IMG/VR virus record: IMGVR_UViG_3300046491_000464
Coordinates: 1 to 41,098 of that record
From: a virus
DNA: 41,098 bases
Strand: one strand, 5' to 3'
The translations under genes and the position numbers were made by a program. Each line of letters begins with the position of its first letter. Position 1 is the first letter of the stretch. This document shows, piece by piece, positions 4,981 to 41,098 of this stretch. Below the pieces are notes generated by a model that was not told where the DNA came from, made no database searches, and saw nothing but the letters and a program-made list of their open reading frames with translations.

Positions 4981-5123
4981 AGCAAACTCACAAAGGCCAA
5001 GATGCCGATTAGGGACAGCGACAGCGTGCCGATGGTCCGCGTGCGCAGCCGTGGATTCAGGACGCCGTACAGGCATGCACCCAGAACGCCACAGGAAACG
5101 AGATATTGGGCGACGTGGCTCAT
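4977..5123 (-). CDS. Small two-segment membrane protein in the lysis cassette
   Basis: This 48-residue protein has two hydrophobic segments (about residues 5-21 and 32-48) joined by a basic turn, NPRLRTRT. It is locked into the operon by ATGA overlaps at both ends, with the upstream holin-like gene (5120-5122) and the downstream endolysin (4977-4980). The position and topology suggest a second holin, an antiholin or a pinholin-type protein. I cannot assign a family by sequence. Confidence 0.7.
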   Translation of the reverse strand: MSHVAQYLVSCGVLGACLYGVLNPRLRTRTIGTLSLSLIGILAFVSLL

Positions 5124-5467
5124 TTGTCGCTCCCGAGGAGGCGGCGCTTGAGCGTGCCGATCAGGTCAGCGGAATTGATCTCCACGAACAGTTCTCGCAC
5201 GACGGCCAGGGCGAAAAGGCCGACGAGGAACTCGAGGAGCGCTGGCACGTGTTCGCCTGGGATGTGCCAGAACTCGATCGCGGCTGGGGCGACATAGCCC
5301 GCGCACGCCAGGCCGGCGCCGAATGAAGTCGCCTTCTGCCAGAGCGTCAGGTCAGCGCCCAGGAACTTTAGCGAGAATGCCGCGCCGACCGCGCCCGGCA
5401 AATATGTCGCTGCGGATTTGATGGCGGTCGCCACAATGGCGGTCGCGGTGGTCACAGGTTCGGTCAT
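5120..5467 (-). CDS. Holin-like membrane protein
   Basis: This 115-residue protein has about three hydrophobic segments (around residues 20-38, 47-65 and 78-96) and a basic tail (GTLKRRLLGSDK). It stands in the holin position, just before a small membrane protein, endolysin and spanins. Holins form lesions in the inner membrane that release the endolysin. The start at 5467 follows the U-tract of a terminator hairpin at 5483-5503. The role is inferred from position and topology. Confidence 0.7.
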   Translation of the reverse strand: MTEPVTTATAIVATAIKSAATYLPGAVGAAFSLKFLGADLTLWQKATSFGAGLACAGYVAPAAIEFWHIPGEHVPALLEFLVGLFALAVVRELFVEINSADLIGTLKRRLLGSDK

Positions 5468-5482
5468 GTCGGCCTTTGCATG

Positions 5483-5503
5483 AAAAAACCCGCCGAAGCG
5501 GGT
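5483..5503 (-). terminator. Intrinsic terminator before the lysis genes
   Basis: On the minus strand the RNA reads ACCCGC, loop UUCG, GCGGGU and then six U. The stem lies between the hydrolase gene (stop 5512) and the holin start at 5467. Confidence 0.75.
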
Positions 5504-5511
5504 CTGGTTGG

Positions 5512-5970
5512 TTATGGGTTGATCGCGAGAAGTGCTGTCTCGCCGACGTGAGACAGGTCGGCGAACAGGTCGCGCCCGGCGGCGCGCAGCACGGCGGCCG
5601 CAAATTCGTAGCAGAAGAACGCGTCCGCCTCGGCCCAGTCCCGGCCAGGCGCGAGACTGAGGCCCAGCGCGCCACCCCAGTCATACGGCACCTTGCGCCG
5701 AGCTTGCTCCGCCGCCCACTTCAGTCCGGCCGCCGCATCCGGGACCTGGTACCGACGTTCCCGGACAATGACCTGGCCATTGATGGCCGTGGCGTAATCC
5801 ACCGCGCGCACGCCGTGCAGCATCGTCGCCTCGTAGCACTGGTCCGGGCCGACCACGATGGCGTGCGAACTGAGAGCGAAGGCGAAGCGGCTGCGCGGCA
5901 TAGCCCAGCGGATGAACCACGAGATCGGGTTCCAGCGGCGGTGGGTGAAAATCACTTTGATAGTGCTCAT
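5512..5970 (-). CDS. Papain-like (NlpC/P60-type, YiiX-like) hydrolase of the tail-lysis border
   Basis: This 152-residue protein has SSHAIVVG with His36 and later FFCYEFAAAVLRAAG with Cys120. The His-before-Cys order is typical of the circularly permuted papain-like amidases related to YiiX/YaeF. VPYDWGGALGLSL, just before the Cys, is also typical. Similar genes occur in phages between tail fibers and lysis genes, but their substrate is not established; peptidoglycan or a lipid amide are possibilities. AAGGAG precedes the ATG at a normal distance. The start and strand are secure. Confidence 0.7.
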   Translation of the reverse strand: MSTIKVIFTHRRWNPISWFIRWAMPRSRFAFALSSHAIVVGPDQCYEATMLHGVRAVDYATAINGQVIVRERRYQVPDAAAGLKWAAEQARRKVPYDWGGALGLSLAPGRDWAEADAFFCYEFAAAVLRAAGRDLFADLSHVGETALLAINP

Positions 5971-7657: not shown

Positions 7658-10600
7658 TTAAAACACGCCATCGCACTGCCACGAGAACGGGCCCGAGATC
7701 CGCGTGCCGGTTTTGTCGAACAGCAGGACCTTGAAACTGGTTGGATTTACAACAGCCACGTAGTCGCACGCCGCGAACACTGCCGCGGTGCCGCCGGCCT
7801 GGATGAATGGTGTCGTCGCGCTAATGAACGGCAGGTTGAAATTGACCACCGTGCCACCGACGTCGGTCGCCACCGCATTGCCGGTCCCGCTGTCGCGGCG
7901 CTTCTTGCTCGACAACTTGAGGTTGATGTTCGTGATCGACAGCAGATTGGCGCCGCCGGTGGCGGTGAAGTCGTAACGCATCTTCACGTAGCGGAAATTC
8001 GACGCAACGATCGATGACAGCCCTGGGCTATCGGTCCATGCATCGCCCCAGGCCAGCTTGTAGCTGATCGTGGGCGTGACCGTGACGGTGCCGGCCAGCG
8101 GCTGCGACGTCATCGTAGCGGTCACCGACGTCGACGTCAGCGTGCTGCCGTAGTCGACGATCTCCTCGTAGTAACCGCTGGTGCTGGACTTCTCCCAGAA
8201 AAACGGGAAGCCGGCCGCGATTTGGTCCGCCGGGGTTGTCCAGCCGTTCGCAGTAAAGTGGGCCTGCCACGATTGTGTGGTGAGGGCGGCATATAGCACG
8301 CCGCCGTCCTGGGTCACGTTGCTCGTCTTGAACGGCACCAGCCGCACCCAGTCGATATCGAAGATGTCCGCCGACGTGTTGCCAAACTGGAGCTGGACGT
8401 CATTGATGATCGAGGCCATCCAGTCGCTGCCGCCGGCCGTCAGCGCATCCATCGTGAAGGTGACGACCTTCAGCTCGCCAATCGCGGGGCTGGTGTCCGC
8501 CGTCGTTGCCATGTAGCTGGTCGACATGCCGTGGCCGGCCGTGTCGTATTTGCACTGTCCTACCCACCCGGCACCGGCCACGCGCCGCAGCCGCACCTGG
8601 ATCATCGGGTACTCGCAGCCGTACAGAATGAAGGCATTCAGCTGCTTGGCGATGATCGGCGTGGTGCCGGTCGAGACGACATGGAGCACCTCAGGCTGCA
8701 GCGTGATCGTGTCCCCTGCCCCGGTCCAGCCCTGTGTGTCGCTGGCGAACTCGTAGAGCAAGCCGCCGAAGTCGGCGTTATAGTCGAGCCGCAGGATGTA
8801 ATCTGGTGGTTGACTGACGGTCGCGGTCACGCTGGTCGGCGTGCTGGTGTTGCCCGCTGTGTCGGTCGCCTGCACCCAGTACGTGTAGACGCCTGATGCT
8901 TGTTCGAAGAATCCGCAGAATCGGCCGTTGCCGTTGTCGCCGATGCTGATGCCCGCCGCCCAGGTCGCGCCGCGGCGCACGTCGTACTTCTGAATCGGCA
9001 AGGTGGTGGTGCTATCGGACCAGTTCAGCAGTACATTGTTGTCGATCGTCTGCGAAGTCACCACCGCATCGGAGGGGTTGGCGATCGTGATCTGCACGCT
9101 GCCGGCCGGGCCGACGTTACCCGCCACATCGACGGCCGCCACCCAATAGGTGCGCACGCCGCCGTAGCTGATCTTCTCCAGGAATTGCGCGCTCTTGGGC
9201 ATGTCGAGCGTCACGGCGCCCGCCCATGAGGATCCGTAACGAACCTCGTAATGGTCGATCGCATAGGCCCCGACGACTGTCGGCCAGACCAGTACAGCCA
9301 TCTGGCCGGCCACGCGCGCGGTCGGCGCGACCACCGCCGGTGGCGCGACGGTGACCGCCAGCGTCGCCGCGTTGACCGATGGATTGCCGGTCGTGTCGAC
9401 CGCCTTGATGCGGAATTGGTAGGTGGCGGCGACCATCGGCGGCAGCAGACATGAGTTGCCGGCGACGCTGGTCACCGGCGCGGCGCTCGCCCAATCCGTG
9501 CCGCCAACGCGAATCTCGTAGTGATCGAGGTCCACATCGGTGTTGTCGGTCCAGCGCAACCGGGTGCCGAAGCTCTCGACCGCCGAGGCAAGCCCGGTGA
9601 CATCGCCAGGCGGGATCGAGAGCCCGAGCACGGTGTAGTTCAGCGTCTGCGTGTCCACCTTGCGGCCCAGCCCATCAATGGCCGTAACCTCGAACATATA
9701 GGCGATCTGGCTCACCGACTGGAAATCGGCCGACGACTCAAGCACCTCACGGGTGACCCATGCCCCGCCACTAATCGGCCGGTACCGAACGCTGAAGCGG
9801 GGCGCCGTGCTCGTCCACGACAGCGTGGCGCGGATACCGAAGCCGGCATTGGCAACCACATACAGCGCCTCGGCAACGCCCATGTTGGTCACCATCAGGC
9901 TGGCGTTCGCCTGACTGGTCGGCGCCGGCGTGAAGGAAACGCCGTTCTCGATCAGCGCGAACTTCTCGGGCGCGTGCTCGACCGCGGAGACTTCGATGAT
10001 GTTCGGCTCCACCTCGGCCAGGCTAACCACGCGCCAGACCTCCGGCACCAGGTCGTTGGCGGCAAAGATGAACACTGCGTTGGCCACTGGCTGGGCCGGC
10101 AGCGAAGAGGTAAGCGTCAGCGTGCTGGTTGAGCCGAGGGAACCAGTCACCGAGCTGTTGAAGATCGAACCATCTTCCAGCATGATGCTCAGCGAATACG
10201 TTTTGCCGGCAGCGATCGTGACCGGCGCGTCAAGCGTGATGACGCTGCCGGCGATGGCTTTGATGCGCCCTCCCATGCGATTGAGCGCGCGGTTGATGTC
10301 CGATGTCTTGATCAGCGCGCCCGGGTACATTGCGCCTTCGATGCTGGTGCGGAAGGTCACCACCTCCGTTTCATTTGATTCGGAGTACAGCAGCCACTGG
10401 CCCACCCGGTGCGCCTGGCCGCGCGACGTGCAGCCAAATGCGACCAGGCTGACAGTTTTGACGCCGTACATCGCGATCGCTGCGTCGTCGGCCACGTACT
10501 CGACTTTTTGGCGGTAGAAGTCCGCCGGATCATTCCACGAGATCAGGGCGACCGTGTGCCGGGCCTTGATGCTGGTGCCAACATAGCCAAATGCCCCGTC

Positions 10601-11767
10601 GATCACGTTGGCGTTGGTGAACAGCGATATCGGCGTCGCCGGCGCGTCCTGTACGACCATGATCGATCCGGTTGCCCAGAACGTGATGGCGCGGAAGACC
10701 GACGCCATGTTCTGCACGACTTGGTAAGCTTCGGCCTGCGTCTGCAGGTACAGGTTGCAGGTGAACCGCGGCTCGTAGCCGCCGAATCCGTTGGGCACCA
10801 TCCCATCGCAATACTGCGCGATCGTGTACAGGGTCCACTTGTCTACCTGGGTTAAGTCGATAAAATCGCCAAGCCCATACCGTTTGCTGGTCACGAGGTC
10901 GAAATAGCACCACGCCGGATTGTCGGTCCAGGCGAGCTTGAACGTGCCGTCCCACAGGCCCGTGTACGCCCGGGTGATCGGATCGTAATTGGTCGGCACG
11001 CGCACGACGAGCAGCTTGACATCGAAGGCGCGCGTCGGGATCGATGAGAATTGCTGACTGTCGATCGATAGCGACACCAGTGCCGAATTCGGGTAAGCCA
11101 AATGCGTGGGATTGACCGCGGTATACAGGTCCCAGAACGTCTTGTTTTCGAGCGTCTGTACGGTGCTGTCCGGGGTCGTGCGCGAGACACGGATATCCCA
11201 GGGTCCGGCCGCATCGAACGAGATGACGTAGGAGCGCTGGTATTTTGACGACGTCTTGCCGGTGATCGTGTCGACCACCTTGTTGACGTAGCCACCGTTG
11301 TTGCATTGCAGGTCTATGGTGATCGCCACACTGGCACCGTTCAGGTCGCCATTCTGGATATTCCGCTCCTGGAGCGACGGCAGCGAGATCGTGACCACCG
11401 CATAAGCCAGATTGGGATCGGTGATGCGCCGCACGACCGGCACCGCCTGCTTGACCTCGACGCCGACGGCGGTGTCGTAGCGCACATCCTCAGTGCCGAA
11501 GGAGATCGAATTGGCGTCCGGGCTGGTGCCGCCCTGCGACTGTGTGCCAGTGCTCCAGTACAGGTGAACGTCGGCGAAGTTGGACGACCCGTCCGCATTC
11601 TGGAGCGGCGTCTCATTGAGATAGACCGATTTAGCGCCGTCGACCAGGCCGTAAATTTCCCCCTCGCATAGCAGATCAAGGACGTGCGCGAATTGTTTCG
11701 AACGCAGAGAGTCGGTCGCCTCGACCGGGGTGTGTGCGCTCCCGCCGCCGCCCTTGCCGCCGCTCAT
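7658..11767 (-). CDS. J: Tail tip protein J (host specificity)
   Basis: This 1369-residue protein starts with GGKGGGGSAHTPVEATDSLRS, typical of lambda J and its relatives. An N-terminal baseplate-hub region follows, then several fibronectin type III-like repeats (about residues 690-1000, each with W-D and YEIR or YEVRY-type strands). A long beta-rich C-terminal part may contact the receptor. It is longer than lambda J (about 1130). The start overlaps the gpI stop as ATGA. It is assembled at the tail tip after gpI, gpK and gpL, and the C-terminal end is the part most likely to set host range. Confidence 0.92.
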   Translation of the reverse strand: MSGGKGGGGSAHTPVEATDSLRSKQFAHVLDLLCEGEIYGLVDGAKSVYLNETPLQNADGSSNFADVHLYWSTGTQSQGGTSPDANSISFGTEDVRYDTAVGVEVKQAVPVVRRITDPNLAYAVVTISLPSLQERNIQNGDLNGASVAITIDLQCNNGGYVNKVVDTITGKTSSKYQRSYVISFDAAGPWDIRVSRTTPDSTVQTLENKTFWDLYTAVNPTHLAYPNSALVSLSIDSQQFSSIPTRAFDVKLLVVRVPTNYDPITRAYTGLWDGTFKLAWTDNPAWCYFDLVTSKRYGLGDFIDLTQVDKWTLYTIAQYCDGMVPNGFGGYEPRFTCNLYLQTQAEAYQVVQNMASVFRAITFWATGSIMVVQDAPATPISLFTNANVIDGAFGYVGTSIKARHTVALISWNDPADFYRQKVEYVADDAAIAMYGVKTVSLVAFGCTSRGQAHRVGQWLLYSESNETEVVTFRTSIEGAMYPGALIKTSDINRALNRMGGRIKAIAGSVITLDAPVTIAAGKTYSLSIMLEDGSIFNSSVTGSLGSTSTLTLTSSLPAQPVANAVFIFAANDLVPEVWRVVSLAEVEPNIIEVSAVEHAPEKFALIENGVSFTPAPTSQANASLMVTNMGVAEALYVVANAGFGIRATLSWTSTAPRFSVRYRPISGGAWVTREVLESSADFQSVSQIAYMFEVTAIDGLGRKVDTQTLNYTVLGLSIPPGDVTGLASAVESFGTRLRWTDNTDVDLDHYEIRVGGTDWASAAPVTSVAGNSCLLPPMVAATYQFRIKAVDTTGNPSVNAATLAVTVAPPAVVAPTARVAGQMAVLVWPTVVGAYAIDHYEVRYGSSWAGAVTLDMPKSAQFLEKISYGGVRTYWVAAVDVAGNVGPAGSVQITIANPSDAVVTSQTIDNNVLLNWSDSTTTLPIQKYDVRRGATWAAGISIGDNGNGRFCGFFEQASGVYTYWVQATDTAGNTSTPTSVTATVSQPPDYILRLDYNADFGGLLYEFASDTQGWTGAGDTITLQPEVLHVVSTGTTPIIAKQLNAFILYGCEYPMIQVRLRRVAGAGWVGQCKYDTAGHGMSTSYMATTADTSPAIGELKVVTFTMDALTAGGSDWMASIINDVQLQFGNTSADIFDIDWVRLVPFKTSNVTQDGGVLYAALTTQSWQAHFTANGWTTPADQIAAGFPFFWEKSSTSGYYEEIVDYGSTLTSTSVTATMTSQPLAGTVTVTPTISYKLAWGDAWTDSPGLSSIVASNFRYVKMRYDFTATGGANLLSITNINLKLSSKKRRDSGTGNAVATDVGGTVVNFNLPFISATTPFIQAGGTAAVFAACDYVAVVNPTSFKVLLFDKTGTRISGPFSWQCDGVF

Positions 11768-12423
11768 AGGTCCAGCGCTCCGTAGTGGCCACGGCCGGTG
11801 TATGGGCTGGTGGGCGCGGTGCGCACCGGCGCAACGAATCGTTGCTCAACCGACATACCAGCTGACACGACTTGCGATCCGACGATCATCCGGCCATATC
11901 CGACCGGGACCGGATTGCCCTGCGCGATTGTGTTGACCGGCCCGTTGAACGCATACGATGGCTCGCTGCCAGGCGCTTCCTTCGGGGAAGCCGTGCTCGG
12001 CGCCGACATCATCATCTGCGAAAGACCGCCGATAACCATGCTGACGCCGAAGCTCAGGGCCATCGTGCCAGTGGTGCCAGCGACGATGGAACCACTCGCC
12101 GACAGCGACGCGCCGTCCGTAACGAATGCCGCGACGATGATCAGAACACCGACCAGCACCTGGCCCAGTCCATTCTTGGCGCCAGCAACCACCGGCACGA
12201 TCTTGATCGGCGCCGCGCCGCTCTGGAACGTCAAATCCTCCATGCCAATATCGCTCTTGCCGACGAGGATGCGATAACCAGGTTTGTGGCCGGCCATCGC
12301 GGCATCGAAGCCACGGAAGTTGGCGCATAGCGCGCGCACCGCCTCCGCTGGGCTGGCAACCTCGAGCGAGAACACCTTGCCGAACTGCTTAGCTAGGTGC
12401 CCGTACAGTCTCACTTCACGCAT
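11764..12423 (-). CDS. I: Tail assembly protein I
   Basis: This 219-residue protein begins MREVRLYGHLAKQFGKVFSL, a ubiquitin-like beta-grasp start typical of lambda gpI. A hydrophobic Gly/Ala region (LGQVLVGVLIIVAAFVTDGA) and a C-terminal half with NPVPVGYGRMIVGS follow. It works with gpK and gpL to build the tail tip and is thought to be lost before maturation. The start overlaps the gpK end by 13 bases. The upstream in-frame extension is out of character. Confidence 0.88.
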   Translation of the reverse strand: MREVRLYGHLAKQFGKVFSLEVASPAEAVRALCANFRGFDAAMAGHKPGYRILVGKSDIGMEDLTFQSGAAPIKIVPVVAGAKNGLGQVLVGVLIIVAAFVTDGASLSASGSIVAGTTGTMALSFGVSMVIGGLSQMMMSAPSTASPKEAPGSEPSYAFNGPVNTIAQGNPVPVGYGRMIVGSQVVSAGMSVEQRFVAPVRTAPTSPYTGRGHYGALDL

Positions 12424-13121
12424 AGCATATCCTTGTGCCGAATAATTTTCACGGTGCACTTCTCCCAGAACCCACCCCACACGTCGACGCTCGACAGGCG
12501 GTGTTCCAGGTGCTGCATGATTTTTCCGTCGCCGACGTAGACGGCGCCATGGTTCGGCGTACTGGCCCCGATCTGCATCAGCAGCACGTCATGCAGGGCG
12601 ATCTGGTCCACCTGGACGAAACCGGCCTCTTCGTAGTGCTGCAGGTACATGCTGCCACCCGTCTCCCAGAACCGCTCCGGGTGCGGGAAGTCCTTGAGCG
12701 TGATGCCGAGGGTGCGCTGGTAGTAGTCTTGAATCAGCGTGTAGCAGTCGAGGACCGTGTACGAATAGACGCGGTCCACCAGTGGCGCGACGTAGCCGCT
12801 CGGAGCGAATTCATGGATGGCGCCTGTTGGCCAGTTGACGATCAACCACGGCAGGCCGGACGCTTCGCAGCCCACCAGATCGGCTTGGCTGGGCAGTGGT
12901 GCCTCGTTCGGGTGTGAGTGCACGATGCAGATCACCTCACCCTCATCTTCGGCGGCGGCGTAGTCCTCCGGGTGAACCGAGAAGTGATCGTCGCCCAGCG
13001 CGGTGTTGCGGCATGGGTAGTAGCGCCGGCGCCCGCGGCGCACTACCACGACACCGCACGACTCGCGCGGAAACTCGGCCTGCGCGTGGTCGCGGATCGC
13101 CTGCAGTGTTGATTCGTCCAT
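12411..13121 (-). CDS. K: Tail tip protein K with JAMM and NlpC/P60 domains
   Basis: This 236-residue protein has two peptidase-like domains. The N-terminal JAMM metalloprotease keeps Glu20 and the exact H-x-H-x7-S-x2-D pattern (His68, His70, Ser78, Asp81). The C-terminal NlpC/P60 domain has Cys126 in VLDCYTLIQDYY and His191 in NHGAVYVG. Lambda gpK has the same arrangement. It may trim tail components or cut peptidoglycan during DNA entry. Both active sites look intact. It starts just past the U-tract of a terminator. Confidence 0.93.
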   Translation of the reverse strand: MDESTLQAIRDHAQAEFPRESCGVVVVRRGRRRYYPCRNTALGDDHFSVHPEDYAAAEDEGEVICIVHSHPNEAPLPSQADLVGCEASGLPWLIVNWPTGAIHEFAPSGYVAPLVDRVYSYTVLDCYTLIQDYYQRTLGITLKDFPHPERFWETGGSMYLQHYEEAGFVQVDQIALHDVLLMQIGASTPNHGAVYVGDGKIMQHLEHRLSSVDVWGGFWEKCTVKIIRHKDMLCVK

Positions 13122-31152: not shown

Positions 31153-31563
31153 TCAAGCAACTATTTTCGGTTGAGCTCGCTGCTGCGCCAGGCGGTCCTG
31201 CGCTGCGATATCAATGTCCTGCAACGCCTCCATCACTGCGGTATGAAGCGCGTGCAGGCGGTTGTACACCGTGACCTCGCTGCAGCGCAATTCCTGAGCG
31301 ATGCGCTTCACCGTGAAGTTGCCGGCCAAGTAGAACCAGTATGCGACATCGTACTGGGCTTGGTTCGTCTTCCTGATGGCGATGACGACGCCTTCAATTT
31401 CCAGCGCGGCGGCAGCCTCGGTGATGCGGCCGGAACCGCCTTGGGTGTGTATCTGCACCAGGTTGCAGTAACTCGATTGCGACGGGTAGCCAATTCCACC
31501 ATCAGTGCGCCGCTTGCACCAAATGGCCCATTCGATCATCCGCTTGTTGATGTATTCGATCAT
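31153..31563 (-). CDS. Phage Q-like antitermination protein
   Basis: This 136-residue protein begins with a helical part and GIGYPSQSSYCNLVQ, a sequence seen in small Q-type antiterminators. It ends with an HTH, YWFYLAGNFTVKRIAQELRC and then SEVTVYNRLHALH, similar to sigma-70 region 4. Such proteins bind the late promoter, join the polymerase and let it pass terminators. AAGGAA precedes the ATG. The position at the end of the early operon, just before the late region, fits. Homology to lambda Q itself is not visible. Confidence 0.72.
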   Translation of the reverse strand: MIEYINKRMIEWAIWCKRRTDGGIGYPSQSSYCNLVQIHTQGGSGRITEAAAALEIEGVVIAIRKTNQAQYDVAYWFYLAGNFTVKRIAQELRCSEVTVYNRLHALHTAVMEALQDIDIAAQDRLAQQRAQPKIVA

Positions 31564-31673
31564 GTCGTTCCTTTTCGTTTTGGAGATGGTGTTGTGGGCA
31601 CTTTTCGCGCCTCGCCTTGTCTATAACGGATGACTACCAATCATTGCGAACATCAATGCCTGATTGGCTCGCT

Positions 31674-32723
31674 TTAACGTTGCTTGCCATTTTCTTGCCT
31701 CGAAAACCCGATTTTTCCAGCTATGTTCGATTGGGCTTCGGACACCTTGCCCATGTCCTTTTCCAGATAGCCCATTGTGGTGATGTGACTCTTGTGCCGC
31801 ATCACCGCCTGGATGGTCTGAATGTTGGCGCCGTTCTCCGACAGCAGCGTGGCGAACGATCCGCGCAGGCGGTGCGGCGTGATGCCCTTGGTGCTGCACT
31901 TCCTGTTGGCCGCTTGCATCGGTGCGCGCGCGAACCCGGCGACGAACTGCGTGCCGTCCGGCCGTGCCGCTATCAGGCCTTCCTGCTGGCGCAGCGGCGT
32001 GAGGTGAGTCAGCAACCATTCCGGCAGCGGGATCGGTTCGGCCTCTCGCCCCTTCGTCACGCCAGGCGTATAGGTGCCGCGCTCCCAGTCCAACCACTCC
32101 CAGCGCGCGCCGGCCGCCTCGCCCTCCCGCAGGCCGGCGCCGAACATCATCCGGATGGCCGTGGCCACCGCGGGCGCGCGCATCGTCGCCGCGTCGATCT
32201 CCGCGAACCAGGCCATTGCAGCTTCCACCGGCAGGATCGCGCGCGGCCGCTTCTGCACCTTGAGCATGTCCACCTGCCACGGCAGCCTGGCGATGATCCC
32301 GCGCTTGACGGCCCAGTTGACCACCAGCTTCATGATGCGAAGCCAGTGATTGACCGAGGCCGGCTTGTGGTCCACCAAGTGCCGGTTGCGCGCCTTCTCC
32401 ATGCGGATGGTGGTCAGCGCGTTGAGCGGCAAGTCGGCCAGGTCGTACATGTGCAAGCGGCGGACCACGTCGACAGCTTTGCGGTGCGGCGCGCTGGCCA
32501 CCGGAGCCCGCGTCTCTTCCCATTCGGCGAACAGCTCGCCCAGCGTGGGTACCGCATGGCCGCCGTTGGCGCGTTCGAGAGCGTTTGCGTACGCGCGGGT
32601 GGCCACCTGCTCGGCGGCGCCCTTCTCCCTGAGCCGCGTGCTGCGCTGCACGCGCACACCGTCCACCTGGAACCGGTAGTGCCAGACCTTGCAGCCCTTC
32701 GGTTTAAAAACGTCAACACTCAT
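31674..32723 (-). CDS. int: Tyrosine recombinase inside the replication module
   Basis: This 349-residue integrase-family protein keeps the catalytic set: Arg199 (GLREGEA), Lys224 (VTKGREAEP), His284-x-x-Arg287 (HRLRGSF), His310 (MRHKS) and Tyr319 (TMGYLEKD). The N-terminal part has the AP2-like strand region (VWHYRFQVDGVRVQRSTRLR) and a SAM-like core-binding domain (about 60-140). A GAGGG Shine-Dalgarno precedes ATG 32723; a longer frame into dnaB is unsupported. It follows dnaB by 26 bases on the same strand, an unusual place because prophage integrases usually lie at one end. Confidence 0.9.
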   Translation of the reverse strand: MSVDVFKPKGCKVWHYRFQVDGVRVQRSTRLREKGAAEQVATRAYANALERANGGHAVPTLGELFAEWEETRAPVASAPHRKAVDVVRRLHMYDLADLPLNALTTIRMEKARNRHLVDHKPASVNHWLRIMKLVVNWAVKRGIIARLPWQVDMLKVQKRPRAILPVEAAMAWFAEIDAATMRAPAVATAIRMMFGAGLREGEAAGARWEWLDWERGTYTPGVTKGREAEPIPLPEWLLTHLTPLRQQEGLIAARPDGTQFVAGFARAPMQAANRKCSTKGITPHRLRGSFATLLSENGANIQTIQAVMRHKSHITTMGYLEKDMGKVSEAQSNIAGKIGFSRQENGKQR

Positions 32724-32749: not shown

Positions 32750-34123
32750 TTAGAACTTGGACCGGCTTTGCTTCGCTTCGGTCTGCGTCGGCGGCGCGCC
32801 CGACCAAGCCGAAAAGCGGCATGTCGGGCCGTCGAACATGAGGTGCACATCGCCGAGTGCGCCGCTGCGCTGCTTCCTGATCATCACCTCGGTGTAACCG
32901 CGCAGCTGCTCGACGCCCGGGCTGTGCATTTCTGGCCGGTGCACGAACATGACGATGTCGGCGTCCTGCTCGATCTCGCCCGAGTCGCGCAGGTCGGACA
33001 GCATGGGGCGCCGGTCTGCGCGGTCCTCTGACTTCCGATTTAGCTGCGCCAGCGCGATCACCGCGATGCCCAGCTCCTTAGCCAGGGCCTTGAGGCCGCG
33101 CGAATACTGGCCAATTTGAGTGGTTCGGTTGTCGCCTTCTGCGCCACTCATCAGGCCGATGTAGTCCACCAGGATGACGTCCAGGCCATGCTTGCGCTTC
33201 CAGGCCTTCGCCTTCATGCGCAACTCCAGCAGCGTGATGGCGGGCGTTCCATCGATCGAGAATCGCACACTGTCCAGGCGTCCAATGCCGGCGCTGATGC
33301 GGTTCCAGACTTCCTGCTCGTCGTCGCCGATGTGCCCCATTATCTTGGTCAGGGCAACGTTGCCGCGGCTGGCCAGCGCGCGGCCGGCGATCTCCTGCTG
33401 CTCCATCTCCATGCTGAACATCACGACGCTTTTCGTCTCGGCGATGTTCAGCCCGACATCAGCGGCCAGCGCGGTCTTGCCCATGGATGGACGGCCGGCC
33501 ATGATGATCAGTTGGCCGGGCCTGAAGCCGCCGTTGAACATTCGGTCCAGGTCTTCGATGCCGGTTGAAATCGCCGTCTCGTGCCCTTCCGCACGCTTCG
33601 TCATGCCCTCGATGAACTCGAGCAGGATCTCGCGGATCATGCGCGGCTCGTTGCGCACGCGGCGCTCGGCCAGCGAGGTGATCATCGATTGCATCGTGTC
33701 GAGCACCTCGTCGGCGCTCTTGCCCGCTGGACGAAAGGCCAGACCACTGATCTGGTCCGACACCTGGATGATGGCGCGCAGCAGCGCGCGGTCGACCACG
33801 GTCTTGGCGTAGGTGGCCACGTTGGCCGCGCTGGGTACGCTCTGCGCGATCTGGTTGAGGTACGGACCTAGGCCGTCGATGTTCGCGCCGCCCCGGCCTT
33901 GCAGTGCGCCCCAGACGGTCATCGTGTCGGCCGGCTGCCCCTTCGATACCAGCTGTACGATCTCGCGGTAGATCGCGCGATGGTCTTCGCGATAGAAATG
34001 CTTGGCCTGCAGGTCGCCGACGCGGTCGAAGGCGTCGTTGTAGCGCAGGATGGCACCCAGTACGGCCTGTTCAGCTTCGATGCTGTGCGGTGGCGCTGCC
34101 AGAATGGTGGTGTCGTCGTTCAA
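32750..34123 (-). CDS. dnaB: Replicative DNA helicase DnaB
   Basis: This 457-residue protein is full length for phage DnaB. The N-terminal helical domain (SIEAEQAVLGAILRYNDAFD) precedes the RecA-like motor with Walker A GRPSMGKTA (210-218), Walker B VILVDYIGLM with Asp320, and SDLRDSGEIEQDADIVMFVH near the end. It overlaps the DUF1376 protein gene by 4 bases, giving an initiator-helicase pair. It unwinds phage DNA at the origin. Confidence 0.96.
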   Translation of the reverse strand: MNDDTTILAAPPHSIEAEQAVLGAILRYNDAFDRVGDLQAKHFYREDHRAIYREIVQLVSKGQPADTMTVWGALQGRGGANIDGLGPYLNQIAQSVPSAANVATYAKTVVDRALLRAIIQVSDQISGLAFRPAGKSADEVLDTMQSMITSLAERRVRNEPRMIREILLEFIEGMTKRAEGHETAISTGIEDLDRMFNGGFRPGQLIIMAGRPSMGKTALAADVGLNIAETKSVVMFSMEMEQQEIAGRALASRGNVALTKIMGHIGDDEQEVWNRISAGIGRLDSVRFSIDGTPAITLLELRMKAKAWKRKHGLDVILVDYIGLMSGAEGDNRTTQIGQYSRGLKALAKELGIAVIALAQLNRKSEDRADRRPMLSDLRDSGEIEQDADIVMFVHRPEMHSPGVEQLRGYTEVMIRKQRSGALGDVHLMFDGPTCRFSAWSGAPPTQTEAKQSRSKF

Positions 34124-34926
34124 GTTGCGTCCCGATGGTATTTGTTTTCGAGGATTTTTGCGAATGAGCTGGGCGAAAAAATGAAATCGATGTCGGCAAT
34201 GAACGGCGGCTTACCAGGCGATGGTGGCGCGAGACCGGTCAGGAACGGCGAGTCAGCACAAATCGTGAAAAAGCGCCGCCAGGCCTCAAGGCCGTCAGCC
34301 ATGGTCGTGTAGCCAAATGGCTTGCACGTGAGCTTTGAGGCCTCCAGCCAGCGCGCCTTAATCGCAGTTTTCCGCGCAGCGTTGATGACCTTGACTTGCG
34401 GATTGAGCGGCATCAACTCGTGGTACAGGTTTACCAAGGTGCCAGTTGGGCACTGGCGAACGTCGTCGACAGACGACTCTGCAGTAGCTGGTTCTTGGTT
34501 AATGGTTCTTGGTTCTTGGTTAGTTGGAGTGCCGTTATTCGGCTGTTCAACGGCCGTTGGAACGCCCGTTGAAAGTCCGTTCAACGCCTCTTGCTTTTTC
34601 AATGCCCTTTTGGCAGCAGAAGCCTTCCCCGCTAATGATTTTTGGCTTGTCGAGTTTCGATAACTCTCCAACTCCTCTTCGCACCGCTGGTGATACCAAC
34701 CCGTTGGCGTTTTCGTGAAAAACTCGTTCAACACCTGTTCAACGGCCGTTACTTCTTCGCTGGAACGGGCAAGGATCTTCCGGCACAGCGCGGCCTGATC
34801 AAGTGTTAGTTGCTGCTCCGTGTCGTAGTAGACATCGAGCAAATCGCGATAGATGCTGCGCTCGATGCGTGTGAGGTGCCTGGTGGCCCGGTCGAAGTCA
34901 CCGATGTGATGCGGGTAAAAGTTCAT
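34120..34926 (-). CDS. DUF1376 replication protein
   Basis: This 268-residue protein begins MNFYPHHIGDFDRATRHLTR and has SIYRDLLDVYYDTEQQLTLD, the DUF1376 winged-helix domain (about residues 1-110). A basic, Ala-rich linker, a repetitive NQEPRTINQEP segment, and a C-terminal domain with FGYTTMADGLEAWRRFFTIC follow. It stands in the place of lambda O, just before DnaB. The repeat segment is encoded by a tandem heptanucleotide array. Confidence 0.85.
   Translation of the reverse strand: MNFYPHHIGDFDRATRHLTRIERSIYRDLLDVYYDTEQQLTLDQAALCRKILARSSEEVTAVEQVLNEFFTKTPTGWYHQRCEEELESYRNSTSQKSLAGKASAAKRALKKQEALNGLSTGVPTAVEQPNNGTPTNQEPRTINQEPATAESSVDDVRQCPTGTLVNLYHELMPLNPQVKVINAARKTAIKARWLEASKLTCKPFGYTTMADGLEAWRRFFTICADSPFLTGLAPPSPGKPPFIADIDFIFSPSSFAKILENKYHRDAT
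34490..34524. repeat. Five tandem heptanucleotides inside the DUF1376 gene
   Basis: The + strand reads GGTTCTT, GGTTAAT, GGTTCTT, GGTTCTT and GGTTAGT with no gap. The array encodes the repeated NQEP segment on the minus strand. It may be iterons of the replication origin, as lambda's origin lies in gene O, or a slippage-prone repeat. Confidence 0.6.
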
Positions 34927-40362: not shown

Positions 40363-40599
40363 ATGGAACATCCAATTAGCTGGGTCAAGCTGGAGAAGTA
40401 TGTCGAACTCACCGGCGACAGCATTGACGCCGTGCAGGCCAGGCGAAAGGCTGGAAAGTGGCTGGATGGGAACCAGTGCAAAATGGTCGATGGGCGGTTG
40501 TGGATCGACCTGCGAGCGGCTCAGCGCTGGGTCGAGGAATGGGATCCGAGTTCGCCGATGCTCGCCGCCGGCGGGACACGCGCAAAGGTAAAAAAATGA
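40363..40599 (+). CDS. xis: Excisionase-like DNA-binding protein
   Basis: This 78-residue protein begins MEHPISWVKLEKYVELTGDS and has IDAVQARRKAGKWLDGNQCK and LWIDLRAAQRWVEEW, the pattern of small winged-helix phage excisionases. GGAAG lies 6 bases before ATG 40363; a longer frame upstream is unsupported. It leads a + strand set with the DUF4224 genes, by position just before the integrase. It would bend DNA at the attachment site. Confidence 0.78.
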   Translation: MEHPISWVKLEKYVELTGDSIDAVQARRKAGKWLDGNQCKMVDGRLWIDLRAAQRWVEEWDPSSPMLAAGGTRAKVKK

Positions 40600-40799
40600 G
40601 CGATATGTTTTTAACTAAGGACGAAATAGCCACTCTGACCGGGCGCAAAACGAAGAGCAAACAGATTGAAGCTCTGCGTAAAATGGCCTTGCCGTTCTGG
40701 GTGAACGCGCATGATGCACCGGTCGTTCCCCGCTCGGCAATTGAGGGACGCCGAGAACTTCCAAAAGAGGTGAAGCCGAAATGGATACCACCCGACTAA
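40596..40799 (+). CDS. DUF4224-family small protein
   Basis: This 67-residue protein begins MSDMFLTKDEIATLTGRKTK and has SKQIEALRKMALPFWVNAHD and VVPRSAIEGRREL, the DUF4224 pattern. These short proteins usually precede an integrase and may be HTH accessory factors. It overlaps the excisionase stop as ATGA. The next gene is its diverged copy. Confidence 0.85.
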   Translation: MSDMFLTKDEIATLTGRKTKSKQIEALRKMALPFWVNAHDAPVVPRSAIEGRRELPKEVKPKWIPPD

Positions 40800-41098
40800 C
40801 GATAAAATTCGAGCGCGATCCGCGCTACCTCAGCGATGGAGATCTGGCCATCCTCACGGGGTGGCGTAATAAGCGCCATCAAGCGGCGCAGCTGCTCAAA
40901 ATGGGGATCCCGTTCGCGCTGAATATTGTTCGCGAGCCCATTGTGCCAATCTCAGCGATTGAGGGGAGTCTCACGGAGGGCAGGCGCGAAGTCAAAGCGC
41001 TTGAGGCGCACTTCGCTGCGCTCCGACTCAGGTATGAGATCAAAGACCCAAATGCGCCGGAAGTGAAGTCCAAGGCCTCTTCCAAGCCCCATCCATGA
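40781..41098 (+). CDS. Second DUF4224-like protein, longer
   Basis: This 105-residue protein has SDGDLAILTGWRNKRHQAAQ, LLKMGIPFALNIVREPIVPI and SAIEG, clearly related to the DUF4224 protein before it, plus a basic C-terminal extension. It overlaps that gene by 19 bases. AGAGG precedes ATG 40781. The stop is at the last bases of the window and contains ATGA, so the next gene, probably an integrase, may start at 41095. Confidence 0.82.
   Translation: MDTTRLTIKFERDPRYLSDGDLAILTGWRNKRHQAAQLLKMGIPFALNIVREPIVPISAIEGSLTEGRREVKALEAHFAALRLRYEIKDPNAPEVKSKASSKPHP

Follow-up and report, generated by a model that had tools for sequence, protein, structure and literature searches.

Phage mosaicism and the arrival of morons are usually credited to illegitimate or homologous recombination. 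The locus described here, centred on a tyrosine recombinase that we call REC, shares traits with four kinds of known system. As in integrons, there is a primary site beside the recombinase gene, like-oriented sites bracket variable genes, and new DNA appears to enter next to the recombinase gene. REC differs from the integron integrase IntI, however, scoring 42.6 bits on TIGR02249 (cut-off 265) and 39.6 on NF011946 (cut-off 435), and its sites differ from attC in consisting of an arm plus a core that do not fold as hairpins (four site units, folded as single strands, did not outperform the majority of shuffled sequences, z -0.8 to -1.7). Further differences from integrons are an N-terminal domain that looks arm-binding-like in the structural model, the presence of at most one bracketed cargo block in the loci scanned, and carriage by phages that have separate end integrases. 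With lambda Int, Tn916/Tn1549 Int and the IntTn916 subgroups (PMC8138268), REC shares a modelled succession of a putative arm-binding, a core-binding and a catalytic domain, a core whose inverted halves enclose a 7-bp spacer, and an arm-type site at a fixed distance. Unlike the arm-binding integrases of phages and ICEs, it does not lie at a prophage end or at attL/attR, where a second integrase serves. Phage Cre, plasmid ResD and XerCD-cer are also extra tyrosine recombinases near replication genes with a local site. To our knowledge they lack an arm-binding domain, and REC sites differ from theirs in bordering variable cargo genes; REC also falls far below the equivalog cut-offs for XerC (51.7 bits against 335) and XerD (42.7 against 330). 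Finally, the moron or accessory loci of lambdoid phages likewise hold small genes that vary between phages and lie close to Q and the late region, several of them reverse-oriented, whereas the insertion point in the REC phages is a defined recombinase site.

The window, i.e. the whole 41,098-nucleotide stretch analysed here (IMG/VR record IMGVR_UViG_3300046491_000464), is a linear fragment in which REC is the sole PF00589 gene (Table 1). The original prediction, which gave no strand for the recombinase gene, had described a complete enzyme with six catalytic residues lying after dnaB, together with an xis-DUF4224 set at the right end, and all of this was borne out. The open reading frame runs on the minus strand from ATG 32723-32721 to stop 31676-31674, 26 bp from dnaB on the same strand; R199, K224, H284, R287, H310 and Y319 are all present, correctly numbered and invariant across 16 relatives. 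With this R-K-H-R-H-Y set inside a Phage_integrase domain (Pfam 60.5 bits, cut-off 27.1; PHROG integrase 3.2e-45), REC belongs to the tyrosine recombinase superfamily. Downstream, REC, its site and the Q-like gene follow one another, with cargo genes absent between site and Q. Xis and two DUF4224 proteins are encoded at the right end. The last base of the window completes the final stop codon, which is overlapped by an ATG (ATGA, 41095-41098), so a further gene, perhaps the missing end integrase, could start there. The cut at 41098 may have removed that integrase, as happened in IMG/VR's cut of a Paraburkholderia tuberum prophage (G005), which ends at position 113276 of G010 and leaves out the integrase at 111948-113216, thus showing how a record can lose its end integrase.

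Table 1. Positions of features in the window and in related loci and prophages
Locus	Feature	Position	Strand	Remark
Window	Q-like antitermination protein, directly after REC site	31153..31563	minus	profile match
Window	Core AATGA-TTGGTAG-TCATC	31629..31645	minus	39 bp after arm; PWM score 27.2
Window	Arm motif GGCAAGAAAATGGCA (family GGCGAGAAAGTGGCG)	31685..31699	minus	overlaps REC 3' end
Window	REC, complete tyrosine recombinase, 349 aa	31674..32723	minus	Pfam, PHROG, catalytic residues
Window	DnaB-like replicative helicase, directly upstream of REC	32750..34123	minus	DnaB_C 8.4e-83
Window	DUF1376 replication (primosomal) protein	34120..34926	minus	Pfam/PHROG profile match
Window	Excisionase-like protein (xis), right end	about 40363..40599	plus	PHROG
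Window	DUF4224 protein (PHROG excisionase)	40596..40799	plus	50.6 bits
Window	Second DUF4224 protein	40781..41098	plus	24.1 bits; stop = window end
L184	Panacea antitoxin, variable region after REC	11745-12233
L179	Addiction module, variable region after REC	5065-5823
L151	PDC-S31 candidate defence protein, variable region after REC	12088-12888
G290	att repeats	5957608/5996394		60+ bp
G296a	att repeats	205982/243119		58 bp, at tRNA-Leu
G002	att repeats	1256/65857		50 bp, at tRNA-Pro
G010	att repeats	111864/151296		20 bp

An AlphaFold2 model of REC has a mean pLDDT of 79 and a pTM of 0.50, so the placement of its domains is uncertain. The predicted N-terminus comprises three short strands and one helix (E3-5, E13-19, E22-28, H33-51; pLDDT about 88), followed by a helical core-binding part and then the catalytic part. 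On this model the N-terminus looks arm-binding-like; a Pfam search of REC returned no arm-domain match. The closest solved structures are Tn1549 Int, lambda Int, XerA and IntI4, and the top Foldseek matches are Tn1549 Int and lambda Int, the Tn1549 entries being without the N-terminal arm-binding domain. Judging from codon comparisons, REC is kept by purifying selection, with dN/dS of 0.01-0.14 in closer pairs: the ratio is 0.01-0.11 in six of the eight pairs compared and 0.14 for the window and G002. The window/G004 pair, which is strongly diverged with dS near saturation, gives 0.37.

Relatives of REC were collected from IMG/VR (80 kept of 171 found), Oxalobacteraceae (14 loci in 12 of 295 genomes) and Burkholderiaceae (13 loci in 12 of 399 genomes); because these loci are related, counts over them are not independent. 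A tblastn search of REC against 50,697 GenBank phage records gave no match at 1e-5, and at E up to 1 only weak generic integrases appeared. Shadow ORFs that a homemade integrase HMM called on the opposite strand in a few cases (e.g. G002 64204+, G010 122981-) were ignored. One plasmid carries a relative, the 87-kb Massilia violaceinigra NZ_CP024609.1 (G159:C2), which also encodes a second tyrosine recombinase; a plasmid with a prophage and a phage-plasmid are the suggested alternatives.

The original prediction had proposed that the phage may carry two recombinases, one for integration and one for another task. The family lends this good support: 13 large relatives (G002, G006, G009, G010, G133, G155, G159, G179a, G261, G278, G290, G296a and G296b) encode, at 6-40 kb from REC, another tyrosine recombinase that is unrelated to it, usually at a prophage end and often beside a tRNA gene. 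The window record itself shows REC alone, and the other loci with a single recombinase are short or incomplete contigs (G203, G243, G179b), a locus with truncated REC (G136) and viral fragments. We mapped attL/attR direct repeats in four prophages, G290, G296a, G002 and G010; exact matching gave repeats of only 17-20 bp or none in G006, G009, G133, G179a, G261, G278, G296b, G155 and G159. In all four mapped prophages one of the repeats is no more than about 0.2 kb from the other integrase, and REC is situated at least 10 kb inside, so that the enzyme found at attL/attR, where a prophage integrase with a chromosomal attB belongs, is the other one. Mapping of attachment sites, proposed as a check of the earlier reading, thus placed the end integrase and not REC beside the repeats in these relatives. 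Since the end integrase sits at the att repeats and REC is internal, REC is very probably not the chromosomal integrase of its family, and the alternative suggestion, a genuine integrase in the internal gene with a relic for an end module, finds no support in these four relatives.

Many phages in virion order carry int-attP mid-genome, and REC could likewise be an ordinary integrase, either in a contig of virion (permuted) order or integrating the phage at a host site. Its lambda-type domain layout and the att-like core directly beside it fit such a role. In host chromosomes, however, REC is internal while other integrases lie at the att repeats of the four relatives, and a pattern search of 295 host genomes recognised no chromosomal copy of the REC site, so we hold an ordinary integrase to be highly improbable; its virion-order version is ruled out for the family by the four sets of att repeats. 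The REC site was also considered as a chromosomal attB and rejected (of 18 pattern matches in the 295 genomes, REC prophages accounted for 10, and the others were scattered).

Using the first window DUF4224 protein as a probe for the context of end integrases, we found an integrase following DUF4224 in eight of 12 Oxalobacteraceae loci and in the REC prophage G296a, and none following it in G004, L301, L302, L309 and L310; the second DUF4224 protein had no match in IMG/VR or in the 295 genomes. In G004 (L060 12300-13277), which is almost a twin of the window, the stretch after Xis and DUF4224 consists of about 180 bp of non-coding DNA and then tRNA-Pro(GGG). No integrase intervenes, so that of G004, if it has one, is elsewhere. 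This tRNA-Pro(GGG) corresponds to the mapped att site of G002.

Comparison of REC 3' flanks first revealed a composite site, consisting of an arm-type motif, GGCGAGAAAGTGGCG or, in a subgroup, GCCACAAAAGTGGCACA, and, 38-39 bp on, a core GATTA-N7-TCATC, whose position weight matrix (PWM) consensus GATTA-TCAACAG-TCATC has imperfect inverted halves around a 7-bp spacer. The site is present in 92 of the 114 loci, for the most part no further than 35 bp from the stop codon of REC, and is absent or beyond recognition in the other 22, including most of those from Burkholderiaceae. In the window the left half of the core is degenerate. The arm motif is found at all 113 of 113 sites, at 38/39 bp from the core in 99 and at 30/31 bp in 11; with up to three mismatches allowed, it occurs in 12% of arbitrary 90-bp stretches. 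When arm and core were searched together with gaps of 24-50 bp permitted, the match lengths fitted the 38/39-bp gap only. In a control scan of 4.5 million positions none reached a PWM score of 27, and three matches scoring 25 were the complementary strand of the G001-G003 sites. Locus L220 has a site with REC mostly deleted. In L233 a complete arm-plus-core site stands at 9227 in reverse orientation, directly before a Q-like gene, with no REC in 12 kb.

Homology between relatives breaks at this site. In eight REC lineages there are pairs with 88-97% identity across REC and its site that are unrelated beyond. Of 114 HSP ends in the 1.6 kb downstream of the site start, the first 100 bp account for 95 (within-lineage pairs are not independent). 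In group A the variable part begins at +36, not at the core edge. Members of the L150 group agree both in REC and on the Q/terminase side, similarity having resumed ahead of the Q-like gene. The differences are thus confined to the intervening genes, whose right border is without a recognisable site.

REC itself has also been exchanged. The window and G004 are near-identical over dnaB and the first ~15 REC codons, drop to about 60% within REC (the proteins are about 58% identical), and return to near-identity exactly at the core; divergent alleles between near-identical neighbours imply that REC was swapped. Such independence of REC from its neighbours, the REC-less site remnants in L233 and L276, and serial insertions beside REC would suit a mobile element or satellite that invaded the phages, with the site as its own attachment site and the cargo as passengers of successive insertions. 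Against this, homology runs continuously from dnaB into REC with no boundary at its 5' side, and no further element genes accompany it, which makes an invading element decidedly unlikely.

A second, like-oriented (direct) site lies 0.6-2.1 kb downstream in 18 loci, bracketing variable genes; as G261/L146 and G296b/L140 are identical there, these amount to about 16 distinct loci. The REC loci scanned contain no third site, and thus at most one bracketed block. The distal sites are homology islands of roughly 75-95 bp that recur in non-coding DNA; in 69 pairs compared, homology ends on the right at +19 to +24 in 43 and on the left at -53 to -74 in 41. One cassette end is found behind different REC lineages (L134, L141, L135). 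The order of genes in three loci is instructive: L159 reads REC-site-Y; L177 reads REC-site 1-site 2-Y, with 637 bp and one reverse-strand gene between the sites; and in L196 the gene known from L177 comes after a site located about 750 bp away from REC, and a different gene occupies the space between REC and this site. As read from these arrangements, the series shows DNA added stepwise next to REC, in the order expected for entry on the REC side.

Mosaic exchange at short boundary homologies is established in lambdoid phages, and REC might be kept for another role while its site is a short conserved module border that homologous recombination of the phage swaps. Homologous recombination inside the homology island could explain some breakpoints, and some borders are without a recognisable site. 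Against a passive border stand the composition of the island, an arm plus a core with rigid spacing and a second direct copy in non-coding DNA, and the apparent entry of new DNA on the REC side; we therefore regard it as unlikely.

Toxin-antitoxin and candidate defence genes occur among the bracketed and neighbouring cargo. Examples are a SocA/Panacea antitoxin and the antidote of an addiction module together with its Gp49-like partner, and two PADLOC candidate families, PDC-S31 (2e-18) and PDC-S67 (7e-5, weak), are matched as well; counts of cargo families are indicative only, because ORF calling is noisy in GC-rich DNA. Downstream of the REC site, G155 and G179a carry reverse-strand serine-resolvase-like ORFs of about 210 aa ('ATFAYGRVST...'), which adds one more recombinase to their variable regions.

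Genome dimer resolution, the other task that the original prediction had offered for REC, would make it a resolvase of circular phage multimers or cointegrates in the manner of Cre/loxP, ResD/rfsF or XerCD/cer, with the swaps as a by-product. The position of REC beside replication genes and the single strong site per genome in most loci agree with this. A resolvase, however, would delete the DNA between direct second copies, and REC combines an apparently arm-binding-like domain with scores far below the XerC and XerD cut-offs. Resolution is thus very unlikely, and the data favour a process in which cargo genes or modules are exchanged and stacked at the REC site.

The reading that we lean towards, as somewhat better than an even bet, is that REC is an internal recombinase of the arm-binding (lambda/Tn916) type that drives cassette or module exchange at its own site. 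The N-terminal domain is predicted to bind the arm motif, and the core-binding and catalytic domains the core. REC would then join incoming DNA bearing a like site; a circle could thereby be inserted, and a segment flanked by direct sites could be excised. New DNA would enter adjacent to REC, as in an integron. A phage could in this way gain, lose or swap small cassettes or whole downstream modules between its replication and late genes; the window would hold the platform in a cargo-free state (REC, site, Q). We infer that REC catalyses the exchange, as well as the position of the crossover, a circular cassette intermediate and a benefit in collecting lysogenic cargo. The main difficulty is the mismatch between paired sites: the two sites of a given phage mostly have different 7-bp spacers (e.g. 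TCATCAG vs TTGTGAA), so exchange by REC requires tolerance of heterology or later divergence of the spacers. Lambda-type exchange requires matching overlaps, whereas Tn916-type enzymes tolerate differing spacers.

Searches of the open-access literature on phage integrons, two integrases, tyrosine-recombinase morons and tycheposons turned up no description of the REC arrangement. It is an evenly balanced question whether these phages of Oxalobacteraceae and Burkholderiaceae carry an undescribed form of cassette capture, with insertion, stacking and exchange at an arm-plus-core site independent of chromosomal integration: a functional counterpart of integrons that evolved from arm-binding integrases and whose cargo comprises toxin-antitoxin, candidate defence and nucleotide-metabolism genes. 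If so, a dedicated site-specific recombinase with its own phage-internal sites would provide an enzymatic route to gene capture and module exchange, and the REC site would explain the fixed position of the variable cargo. Such a system predicts REC-dependent excision and exchange between two defined sites, and REC with its site would be a new recombinase-site pair for genetics.
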